NCBI GenBank assembly: GCA_002778705.1 | Contig: PFAM01000013.1 | Location: 135,853-171,360, forward strand | Length of the DNA stretch: 35,508 nt | Source of the DNA: Candidatus Falkowbacteria bacterium CG10_big_fil_rev_8_21_14_0_10_37_14 | Lineage (GTDB): Bacteria; Patescibacteriota; Patescibacteriia; Patescibacteriales; Patescibacteriaceae | Reading direction: 5' to 3' | Part shown: positions 10,944 through 25,660 of the stretch, piece by piece | How positions within the stretch are numbered: position 1 is the stretch's first letter | Layout: each line of letters begins with the position of its first letter | Translations under genes and position numbers: made by a program | The notes under the pieces: generated by a model | Told to the model about the DNA's origin: nothing | The model's input: only the letters and a program-made list of their open reading frames with translations | Databases searched by the model: none

Positions 10944-11136
10944 CTAAGCTTCCCTACATTCTGGTTCCAAGCTTAATTTAATACAAAAGACACCTCGATT
11001 AGGGCAAAATAATTAAGTGACTAATTATAAACCTAAAAAAGATGTCTTATATACTATTATTTTAAACCAGAAAAAAGAAATGAGCTAGTGGTTGTGTTAC
11101 GAGCTGGGTTAAAACAAAAAGATATAGCTAAATTAC

Positions 11137-11165
11137 TTGGCAAGACGGCGTCAGCCGTCTGCCAA
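11137..11165. repeat. Strong hairpin inside the transposase 5' region
   Basis: TTGGCA-a-GACGGC and GCCGTC-TGCCAA pair as 12 bp around a 4-nt loop, within codons for the helix-turn-helix. Some IS elements use such hairpins near the transposase start to block read-through expression (known for other IS); here this is only a suggestion. Confidence 0.6.
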
Positions 11166-11930
11166 GAGTTAAAGAGAAATAGAACTGATAATAAAAGTGG
11201 TTATGATGTCGGTCTAGCTAAAAAGATGACTAAAGAAAGAAGAGTTATGGCTAACCAGAGATTTAGAAAGATTGAAAATAACAAGTGGTTAAAAAATTAC
11301 ATTGCAAAGAAAATTGAAAAATACTGGTCGCCGGAACAAATTAGTGGACGATTAGGATATCTCTATCCAAATGAAAAAATGAAACAGATTGGCAAAGATA
11401 GCATCTATAAATATATCTATGATGAGAGGAAAGAATTAGTTAAGTATCTTAGATGTCAGAAAGGAAAATATTGTAGGCGCTATGGCACGAGAATACCCAC
11501 AGAACAACGAGAAGAGCTAAAAAAGAGACGAATTAACGAAAGATCGGTTGAAGTGGAAAAGCGAGGACAAATTGGTCATTGGAAAGGAGCTGCAATAGTG
11601 GGCACTGACAAACAACATATTCTAGCTCATGTGGAGAGAAAAAGCGGATTACTATTAGCAGACAAACTGAAACGAGGCACAGCGGAATTAACGAGACAAA
11701 AAACAATTGAAAGATTTGAACATATTCCTAAGAAGAAAAAACTGACGATGACTTATGATAATGGTGTTACCTTTGCTGAGCATGAAATGACTGAGAAAAA
11801 AACGGGAATAATAATTTATTTCGCTAATTCATATCACTCCTGGTAACGCGGGACTAATGAAAATTGTAATGGCTTGCTCAGACAATTCTTTCCAAAAAAA
11901 TCCGCCTTTGCTATGATCACTCAAGAGGCT

Positions 11931-23395: not shown

Positions 23396-23460
23396 TGTCA
23401 AATTTCCAATTTCCAATGTCAAATCAAAGGGATAAAATCCAAATGTTAAAAAGAAAACGG
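23396..23460. repeat. AT-rich short-word repeat upstream of dprA
   Basis: The words TTTCCAA (twice) and TGTCAAAT (twice), then AAATCCAAATG, form a simple, imperfect repeat tract. It resembles low-complexity intergenic repeats known from Parcubacteria-like genomes. No function can be assigned. Confidence 0.4.
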
Positions 23461-23564
23461 AAACATAGAATTTTAAATATCTTTGTTAGTATAACATAAT
23501 TAGGGCATGTTTGGTAATGTTGATTTATTTTAAAGAATATGTTAAAAAGTAAAAGTCTTGTTTT

Positions 23565-23638
23565 GGACGGCTAGCTCAGTTGGTTAGAGCGCTACATTGA
23601 CATTGTAGAGGTCACAGGTTCGAATCCTGTGTCGTCCA
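23565..23638 (+). tRNA. tRNA-Val (anticodon GAC)
   Basis: 74-nt cloverleaf. Acceptor GGACGGC/GTCGTCC (one G-U), D-arm GCTCAGTTGGTTAGAGC, anticodon stem CTACA/TGTAG with loop TTGACAT, and T-arm CACAGGTTCGAATCCTGTG. Discriminator A; CCA is not encoded. A terminator follows at 23649. Confidence 0.97.
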
Positions 23639-23648
23639 CACAAAATTA

Positions 23649-23689
23649 AAACAGCCTCACACTTTTGTGTTTGGCTGTTTGTTTTTTTA
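23649..23689 (+). terminator. tRNA-Val terminator
   Basis: An 8-bp outer stem AAACAGCC/GGCTGTTT, an inner CACA/TGTG stem, then GTTTTTTT. Confidence 0.88.
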
Positions 23690-23698
23690 GTGACTTTT

Positions 23699-23929
23699 TT
23701 ATGAAATAATGTTAGGTACCGCACTGTAAAAGATTACTACTGCACCTGCATCTTTAAAATTGTGTACTTTTTTCATAAATTTGTCTGAGTGAGCTAATAC
23801 AAATAAAAACATTTCCTGTTGCGTTGTGTCAGAAGAGAACTTATAAAAACCTGTATGTGTGAATGTAGTTGTCACTTTTGTTTCTTCGGTGAAACGGGCT
23901 AATGTCATAATGCAAAAATACTCTATCAT
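23699..23929 (-). CDS. Small hypothetical protein (76 aa) downstream of a structured RNA
   Basis: ATG at 23929 is preceded by GGAG with a 6-nt spacer, one of the clearer Shine-Dalgarno sites in the window. The product has no TM segment, mixed composition and several Thr/Phe; no motif is recognised (ARFTEETKVTTTFTHTGFYKF ... AHSDKFMKKVHNFKDAGAVVIFYSAV). It starts about 40 nt after the terminator-like end of the candidate RNA at 23966-24132, so it may be expressed by read-through of that RNA. Confidence 0.55.
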   Translation of the reverse strand: MIEYFCIMTLARFTEETKVTTTFTHTGFYKFSSDTTQQEMFLFVLAHSDKFMKKVHNFKDAGAVVIFYSAVPNIIS

Positions 23930-23965
23930 GATTTACTCCATCTTTTATAATGTAAAAAAATTGTT

Positions 23966-24132
23966 AAATAAAAAATTATCCATAATAATTCGGAAAAGAT
24001 TCGTGGATGTTGCAGGGAAAACTGGTAACACCCCCGAGAACTAACCGTAGTTGTTGACCAGCCGTAGCCGGTCGGCAATTACTCTGTTAGACCTCTCCCT
24101 CGTTTCCGAGTTATTATGGATAATTTAACTAT
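23966..24132 (-). ncRNA. Candidate ~165-nt structured RNA (6S-like or leader RNA, unassigned)
   Basis: A 24-bp terminal helix (24103-24126 with 23973-23996, one mismatch) joins both ends of the predicted transcript; the 3' arm runs into six T, making a Rho-independent terminator. Inside, on the minus strand: AGGGA/TCCCT and TAACA/TGTTA helices separated by an internal loop, then two apical hairpins, GACCGGC-tacg-GCTGGTC and AACTA-cggt-TAGTT. The interior is clearly more GC-rich than its surroundings. No start-to-stop reading frame explains it. Length, long closing helix and consensus promoter resemble 6S RNA, but apical branching differs and I cannot assign a family. It could instead be a riboswitch-type leader for the small gene at 23699-23929. 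Confidence 0.6.
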
Positions 24133-24138
24133 GGCTAC

Positions 24139-24167
24139 ATTATAGCATACTTTGGTTATCTTGTCAA
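24139..24167 (-). promoter_or_regulatory. Consensus sigma70 promoter for the structured RNA
   Basis: On the minus strand: perfect TTGACA (24162-24167), 17-bp spacer, perfect TATAAT (24139-24144), with TGC before the -10 box. It is the only promoter in the window perfect at both boxes; predicted start is ~24132. Confidence 0.9.
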
Positions 24168-24303
24168 GGGTATTGATAAAATAGGCTTAAATTAGCCGTT
24201 TTTTGTTAAATATAGTATTTTAGGCCTGTTTTGGTTAGCCCTTTATTTTTTTAGCGTTTTGTTTTATGGTGTATAGGTAGTATCTGCCTAAAGCGGAGAA
24301 ATC

Positions 24304-24377
24304 GCGCCTGTAGCTCAGATGGTTAGAGCACAGCTCTTATAAAGCTGGGGTCGATGGTTCAAGTCCATCCAGGCGCA
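24304..24377 (+). tRNA. tRNA-Ile (anticodon UAU)
   Basis: 74 nt. Acceptor GCGCCTG/CAGGCGC (perfect), D-arm GCTCAGATGGTTAGAGC, anticodon stem CAGCT/AGCTG with loop CTTATAA, and T-arm GATGGTTCAAGTCCATC. The anticodon TAT reads AUA directly. Most bacteria read AUA with a CAU tRNA modified to lysidine by TilS. Discriminator A; CCA not encoded. Confidence 0.95.
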
Positions 24378-24386
24378 CAATTAAAT

Positions 24387-24439
24387 CAGCTCTTATAAAG
24401 CTGGGGTCTTAGGTTGCAGTCCTCCAGGCGCACAATTAA
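24387..24439 (+). pseudogene. Broken tandem copy of the tRNA-Ile 3' half
   Basis: It begins exactly at the anticodon stem (CAGCTCTTATAAAGCTGGGGTC identical to the gene) and continues through a T-arm with four or five changes to AGGCGCACAATTAA, which again matches. The repeat period is 56 bp. The T-stem no longer pairs and the 5' half is missing, so it cannot fold as a tRNA. Confidence 0.85.
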
Positions 24440-24480
24440 TTTTGAGAACACAAATCCATTGGCTAATGTTGGTGGGTTTA

Positions 24481-24489
24481 TGTTATAAT
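24481..24489 (+). promoter_or_regulatory. Extended -10 promoter of the pilin-LamG gene
   Basis: TGT + TATAAT (24484-24489) with no good -35 box; the ATG is 8 nt after the -10 box, so a leaderless transcript is predicted. Confidence 0.55.
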
Positions 24490-24496
24490 TAAGACA

Positions 24497-25660
24497 ATGA
24501 AGAAAGTTATTATAATTAATTACTCAGCTTTTACATTAGTTGAGGTGCTTTTAGTGATAGGGGTTGTCGCCGTGTTGGCTACAGCGATAATTATCGCTGT
24601 TAATCCTCTGCATCAATTGGCCGCCGCTAGAGATTCGACTAGACTAAAAAGTTTATCTACTATTCAAAAAGCTATTAATCAATATCAAGTTGATCATAAA
24701 GGTGCTTATCCGAATGGTTTAGTAACTAAACTACAAGAGATTTGTAATAATGATGTTGTTCAAAGTCAATGTTTGGCTGATGGTAAATTGTATTTAGGAG
24801 AGTTGACAAATAATCAAGAATATTTAACTAGACTGCCAGTTGATGATTTAGCTACCAGCTCTTTGGGAACTGGTTATCAAGCGGCTATTAATTCTGCTGG
24901 GCGAGTAGTTTTATCGGCGATGTATGCTGAGTTAGCCAGTATCACTGTTGGTGATCCTGATTCATTGCTTCGTGATTTTGGGACGGCCGAGGGTTTAGTT
25001 GGTTGGTGGATGCTTAATGATTTATATGGAGCTAAAGATTTGAGCGGGTATGGGAAAAATGGCAATTTGTTTGGTGGGGTAGCTACTTCTACTGGCATGA
25101 ATAATAAAATAAACGGTTCTTATGATTTTTTAGCTAACTTGGTTGTGCCATATGCTGGCGTAAGTATACCATCAACTAATATTCACGATGTTGGAACTGC
25201 TTGGACGATGGGCGCTTGGTTTTATAATAATTTATCGAGTGCTACCGGCACGATGCAAACTATTTTAACTAGAAATGGACAGAGTCAACCGAATTATGGT
25301 CATTGGTGGATTATAGCCTATTCTAATAAAAAATTATTATTACAAATTAATAATGGAATTAATGTTAATTTAATTTGGAGTGCTGTGCTTATTTCTGACC
25401 AATGGCAACATTTAGTTTTAAGAATGAACAATGATAACGCTGTGGAGCTTTTTGTGAATAATATTGCAAAAGGGAAAAAAAAGATACCAGGTGTTTATAA
25501 AGAAGTTTTAGTTAGAAATTCTATTTCTTTGGGAGCGTATAATGGCAGTACTGGACCTGCTTATCGCTTAGGCGGTAAGCTAGCCGATGTGCGTATTTAC
25601 AATCGACCTCTTAGTAATCAAGAAATCAGTGGTTGGTATAATGCAACTAAAACTAAATAA
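24497..25660 (+). CDS. Prepilin-like protein fused to a LamG (concanavalin A-like) domain
   Basis: 387 aa. A short leader ends SA|FTLVEVLLVIGVVAVLATAIII: class III prepilin N-terminus with Glu at +5 and an N-terminal helix, but Ala rather than Gly at -1. Residues ~45-150 form a pseudopilin-type globular part (STIQKAINQYQVDHKGAYP ... LGTGYQAAINSAGRVVLSAMY). Residues ~165-385 are a LamG_3-type jelly roll: GLVGWWMLND, DLSGYGKNGNLFGG, WTMGAWFYN, WQHLVLRMNNDNAVELFVN, GKLADVRIYNRPLSNQEI. It is likely a minor, possibly tip-located pilin with a carbohydrate- or surface-binding lectin head (inference). Monocistronic. Confidence 0.87.
   Translation: MKKVIIINYSAFTLVEVLLVIGVVAVLATAIIIAVNPLHQLAAARDSTRLKSLSTIQKAINQYQVDHKGAYPNGLVTKLQEICNNDVVQSQCLADGKLYLGELTNNQEYLTRLPVDDLATSSLGTGYQAAINSAGRVVLSAMYAELASITVGDPDSLLRDFGTAEGLVGWWMLNDLYGAKDLSGYGKNGNLFGGVATSTGMNNKINGSYDFLANLVVPYAGVSIPSTNIHDVGTAWTMGAWFYNNLSSATGTMQTILTRNGQSQPNYGHWWIIAYSNKKLLLQINNGINVNLIWSAVLISDQWQHLVLRMNNDNAVELFVNNIAKGKKKIPGVYKEVLVRNSISLGAYNGSTGPAYRLGGKLADVRIYNRPLSNQEISGWYNATKTK

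Follow-up and report, generated by a model that had tools for sequence, protein, structure and literature searches.

We describe here a previously uncatalogued structured RNA, so far found in one Falkowbacteria family only, that lies between a consensus promoter and the start codon of a small gene. It is encoded on the minus strand of a 35,508-nucleotide stretch of DNA (the window) from Candidatus Falkowbacteria bacterium CG10_big_fil_rev_8_21_14_0_10_37_14. Its fold is supported by covariation, and it represents a new family of leader-type RNA without an Rfam entry. Concerning its role, we lean towards a family-restricted modular 5' leader that would act in cis to stabilise or boost short monocistronic mRNAs for accessory proteins. 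The features of the locus are, in the order of transcription:

24180-24285, minus strand: AT-rich stretch upstream of the promoter; its GCTAA/TTAGC boxes (GGCTAATTTAAGCC) are possible sites for an activator or of the UP type.
24139-24167, minus strand: promoter TTGACA-17-TATAAT with extended -10 (TGC), 12/12 consensus positions; TTGACA and the 17-nt spacer are present in 8/8 copies.
23973-24132, minus strand: structured leader RNA of about 160 nt, with predicted start at about 24132 and a 5' tail of about 6 nt, supported by fold z-score, homologues and covariation.
24100-24126, minus strand: 5' half of the closing helix (helix 1, in which 95.8% of alignment cells are paired), its inner UCGGAAA conserved.
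24036-24096, minus strand: long arm (helices 2-4) with a GGC-UACG-GCU tetraloop cap and an invariant G-U pair beside the cap.
24005-24034, minus strand: second arm of the three-way junction, variable, conserved neither in length nor in sequence.
23973-23999, minus strand: 3' strand of the closing helix, containing the conserved UCUUUUCCG, from the fold and the alignment of copies.
23930-23972, minus strand: AU-rich linker with Shine-Dalgarno sequence (GATGGAG), matching TTATTTAAAAAT..AGGAGTTTATC in relatives.
23699-23929, minus strand: small orphan ORF of 76 aa, presumably on the same mRNA; the position of ribosome-binding site and ATG is kept in relatives.
23648-23680 (approximate), minus strand: ACAGCC..GGCTGTTTT, read by eye as the probable intrinsic terminator of this mRNA; the opposing tRNA-Val follows immediately.

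A minus-strand promoter with TTGACA and a 17-nt spacer had been proposed in the sequence-only reading, and it ranks first among 10 promoter-like sites in 23400-24600, with TATGCTATAAT as its extended -10. A perfect TTGACA, the 17-nt spacer and a near-consensus -10 precede all eight copies of the RNA, with a predicted 5' tail of 6-17 nt ahead of the closing helix (6 nt in the window copy). The GCTAA boxes are found at other promoters as well: they recur within about 110 bp upstream of some strong promoters (this one and those at loci L080, L081 and L102) and are possibly a shared activator site.

The window RNA has a predicted folding energy of -65.8 kcal/mol, versus -42.2 +/- 4.1 for shuffled sequences (z = -5.74; 0/200 shuffles as low). 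The closing helix pairs 24126-24100 with about 23999-23973 through 16 pairs, one C.A mismatch, 7 pairs and 2 more, so that the 24-bp end-to-end helix reported earlier was right within one or two pairs. The branched interior with two hairpins was equally well recognised, as two arms, one capped by C(UACG)G and the other shorter. The T6 reported after the second arm of the repeat does exist (23975-23970), but three of its Ts lie inside the helix and not after it. Since the U-run beyond the helix is UUU-A-UUU only and is absent from all other leader-type copies, a terminator at the helix end is unlikely.

Searching 192 relatives with blastn returned only AT-rich fragments of the arms. A covariance model built from the window sequence alone, searched against 384 genomes, detected seven further copies, all in the family of the window: four in G001, which belongs to the same genus as the window genome, and one each in G002, G005 and G009. 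When the public genome collection was scanned with a pattern, matches were confined to the same four genomes. A model made from seven distinct copies, run first on 40 relatives and afterwards on the 111 genomes of the order, recovered the same eight and no further convincing match. Weak matches in G031 and G064 were rejected on inspection, one being a hairpin only and the other devoid of the conserved arm. The RNA is absent from the other genomes of the family, including the near-complete G003, G004, G008 and G012, and phage, plasmid and viral-contig collections gave no match. It is present as a single copy in its own genome and in 1-4 copies in the other carriers.

Rfam contained no match to the window RNA at the gathering threshold and, at E <= 10, one chance-level AT-rich match only; searches with the homologues likewise gave no family. 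The earlier description of an RNA of about 165 nt belonging to no known family is thus borne out by a structured RNA of about 160 nt that is unassigned in Rfam. The accompanying suggestion of an abundant housekeeping RNA such as 6S is not supported. Size, closing helix and strong promoter do resemble those of 6S RNA (RF00013). However, the Rfam 6S models fail on the window RNA (even at E = 10) and on its homologues, and the fold is a three-way junction, not a rod with a large central bubble, with no conserved element resembling an open promoter. Moreover, the RNA is patchily present, being missing from near-complete relatives, and it forms an mRNA leader at 6/8 loci. A divergent 6S RNA regulating RNA polymerase is therefore scarcely credible. 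Among the open papers searched, none came up on 6S RNA in the candidate phyla radiation or on small RNAs of Falkowbacteria.

Other known RNAs were rejected as well. The window RNA has no match to RF00169 (bacterial SRP RNA). This model, applied with strict filters, detected no small SRP RNA in the 61 genomes of the order that were searched; SRP RNA has apparently been lost in the order or is too divergent for the model. Neither RNase P RNA nor tmRNA models matched. RNase P RNA of the window genome is encoded elsewhere (G000:C15:90354-90740), and in G009 and G001 genes for RNase P RNA and tmRNA, distinct from the RNA described here, lie close to its copies.

Each copy folds independently to the same plan, with a long closing helix, a capped long arm and a variable second arm. 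In the seven-copy alignment, 95.1% of cells are paired and 17 pairs have changed on both sides; as a single genome contributes three of the seven rows, all close to one another, the independent covariation evidence is nearer to five lineages. The covariation score of 0.390 compares with 0.200 +/- 0.018 for shuffles, 0/500 of which were as high, and with at most 0.143 for a slid alignment. Covariation in homologues, proposed earlier as a check on the RNA, is thus clearly present. In all seven copies a nearly continuous helix of 24 pairs leads into the three-way junction. Conserved elements are UCGGRA..UCUUUUCCG in the closing helix and the arm cap GGY-UACG(UUCG)-RCU. The nucleotides of the junction are variable. 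Conserved unpaired positions are few, so the alignment gives no pointer to a specific binding partner.

The copies could also be seen as a DNA-level element, such as a MITE or a recombination or integration hairpin, devoid of RNA function. They occur at non-homologous places, the tRNA gap and the murA/P-ATPase gap being empty in the other genome, and they are homogenised within a genome. However, G-U pairs, which are weak in DNA, are invariant among the copies, and the model scores 137.7 bits on the RNA strand versus 50.6 bits on the opposite strand; both point to RNA of this strand as the working form. Scattered MITE copies, which the sequence-only reading had advised looking for, do not account for the RNA either, as far as sequence can show: copies are few, most genomes having just one, and each is preceded by a predicted strong promoter. 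With ribosome-binding site and start codon in register and no recombinase adjoining the copies, a DNA-level element is very improbable.

The sequence that follows the RNA points to a leader. At 6/8 loci the RNA is succeeded by a linker rich in A and U (TTATTTAAAAAT-like) and a strong Shine-Dalgarno sequence, after which a small monocistronic ORF starts with ATG and is itself followed by a terminator-like hairpin. Linker, Shine-Dalgarno sequence and ATG are conserved between genera, and at these six loci a conserved, covarying RNA stands between promoter and start codon. The earlier statement that no ORF explains the window RNA was half right: an ORF (23929-23699) with GGAG-6-ATG begins about 43 nt past the helix, and this arrangement is conserved in the homologues. 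Its coding signal is weak, though the best of the three frames, and it has no match in Pfam or NCBIfam; a search of 192 genomes gave no convincing relative, and phages yielded none either. Because of these weak coding statistics and the lack of relatives, translation of the window ORF stays putative. The ORFs behind the G002 and G005 copies also have no recognised relatives, and unrelated ORFs occur behind different copies.

The remaining two copies (in G009 and copy a of G001) have no ORF and carry a strong hairpin terminator directly after the closing helix. These perfect terminator hairpins would suit an abundant free small RNA acting in trans, by protein binding or as a sponge. In the leader-type copies the RNA of about 160 nt would then be released by cleavage in the linker or arise together with read-through, the ORF being incidental. 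The very strong and conserved promoter and the unrelatedness of the ORFs fit such an RNA, and the conserved AU-rich linker might serve as a ribonuclease site. On the other hand, linker, Shine-Dalgarno sequence and ATG are conserved between genera and three genomes have the leader form only. A housekeeping RNA of this family, moreover, would not be missing from near-complete relatives. We regard a free RNA as a general explanation as unlikely; for the terminator-ended copies themselves, a role in trans is possible.

A conserved three-way junction in the 5' UTR of genes that perhaps need conditional expression also recalls a ligand-sensing riboswitch or another regulated leader for the downstream gene. 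No expression platform was seen in single-sequence folds, in which the pairing probability of the ribosome-binding region is moderate in some copies. This region is separated from the closing helix by at least 30 nt and is not part of the fold; no terminator stands between RNA and ORF in the leader-type copies. Given as well that the junction nucleotides vary and that one arm is wholly unconserved, a riboswitch appears distinctly improbable.

For the cis-acting leader that we prefer, the following mechanism can be proposed. RNA polymerase would start a short way (6-17 nt; in the window, 6 nt) ahead of the closing helix, and the 5' end of the mRNA would be tied into the 24-pair helix, with its conserved purine/pyrimidine-rich inner part and the UACG-capped arm. 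This structure, alone or as a protein-binding site, may shield the mRNA from 5'-end-dependent decay and/or ensure strong expression; a protein could bind at the conserved inner helix and the capped arm. The AU-rich linker and the strong Shine-Dalgarno sequence, both outside the helix, would drive translation of the small gene behind. The promoter-leader-RBS unit would be copied or homogenised between loci within a genome. Transcription itself, like the effect on stability or expression and the binding of a protein, we infer from the sequences compared here.

Stem-loops that stabilise mRNAs from their 5' end are known for ompA of E. coli and in the 5' UTRs of recA and vacA (PMC7509114). By analogy with them, the 5' structure is expected to prolong the life of the mRNA and to increase output. 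The RNA described here resembles these stem-loops in being a structure near the mRNA 5' end, with the ribosome-binding site outside and an expected block of 5'-end-dependent decay. However, it is far larger and branched, has conserved motifs and is reused before unrelated genes at different loci. Such reuse recalls what is known in cluster K mycobacteriophages as Start Associated Sequences (SAS) and Extended SAS (PMC3203893), a repeated unit with an inverted repeat and a Shine-Dalgarno-like sequence directly before the starts of unrelated small genes. SAS, in contrast, is a phage element of 13 bp with additional 17-bp repeats, and its description includes neither a strong promoter of its own nor a three-way junction RNA. 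As a covarying intergenic RNA upstream of genes of unknown function, the family also resembles orphan structured RNA candidates obtained when intergenic regions of bacteria are searched comparatively (for example PMC11109978); it differs from these in being restricted to one candidate-phylum family and in having both leader and terminator-ended forms.

The modularity of the unit is most evident in G001. Copies b and d are identical over 258 nt, exactly from the -35 TTGACA to ATGT, and unlike outside. Copies a and b share both flanks, and yet the RNA of a resembles that of c and the RNA of b that of d. This mosaic suggests gene conversion between copies. The ORF of copy b (35 aa) matches the N-terminus of the protein family encoded behind copy c and looks like a truncated remnant of it. 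In two further G001 genes of this family the promoter is similar and the RBS region the same, but the RNA is missing; it thus seems to be an optional module of the 5' UTR.

Some of the genes behind the RNA encode proteins of retroelement-type variable families. The window genome contains, outside the window, a diversity-generating retroelement (DGR; G000:C25 4452-7005) with RT, bAvd and variable protein, and a TR/VR pair of 122 nt with 90% identity, 10/12 differences being at template adenines. The 187-aa ORF product of copy d in G001 and the target protein of this DGR are homologous. The copy c ORF belongs to a second protein family with a similar C-terminal region, which we take to be of the DGR type by resemblance and not from a template. 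Despite this association the RNA is not a template repeat. Comparison with the sequence downstream gave only short, near-chance matches, and a DGR template RNA was rejected. It may be speculated that a promoter-leader cassette was moved or converted onto variable and fast-evolving accessory genes to give them a common strong, stabilised expression, while free copies act in trans on a shared regulator; we consider this extended scenario doubtful. An exact promoter-to-start-codon module before unrelated or hypervariable small genes suggests a possible uniform route of strong expression for new or diversified genes in ultra-small bacteria. The RNA family yields clear predictions for metatranscriptomes.

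The two genomes of the genus carry their copies at different positions. The tRNA-Val/tRNA-Ile gap, which holds the RNA in the window, measures 78 bp and is empty in the sister species; conversely, the murA/P-ATPase gap of the window (137 bp) is empty and G001 has a copy of the RNA there. Synteny followed through dprA and the tRNA pair indicates that the position is kept in relatives, but is empty or filled with other inserts. The pair itself, tRNA-Val(GAC)/tRNA-Ile(UAU) at 23565-24378 of the window, is conserved in the family, and its gap contains a 213-aa ORF in G011 and a 176-aa ORF in G012. This gap appears to be an insertion hot spot. A dprA tree does not separate a single origin of the RNA from its transfer. 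The G009 copy is located between RNase P RNA and tRNA-Val, and two G001 copies in opposite orientation, one without ORF, flank tRNA-Gly, tRNA-Leu, tmRNA and smpB (G001:C8 8400-11450, L080). Elsewhere in the window, an apparently truncated IS30-like transposase ORF was recognised by eye at 11088-11846, and 24497-25660 encodes a pilin-like protein with an N-terminal methylation motif and a concanavalin-like (Laminin_G_3) domain.
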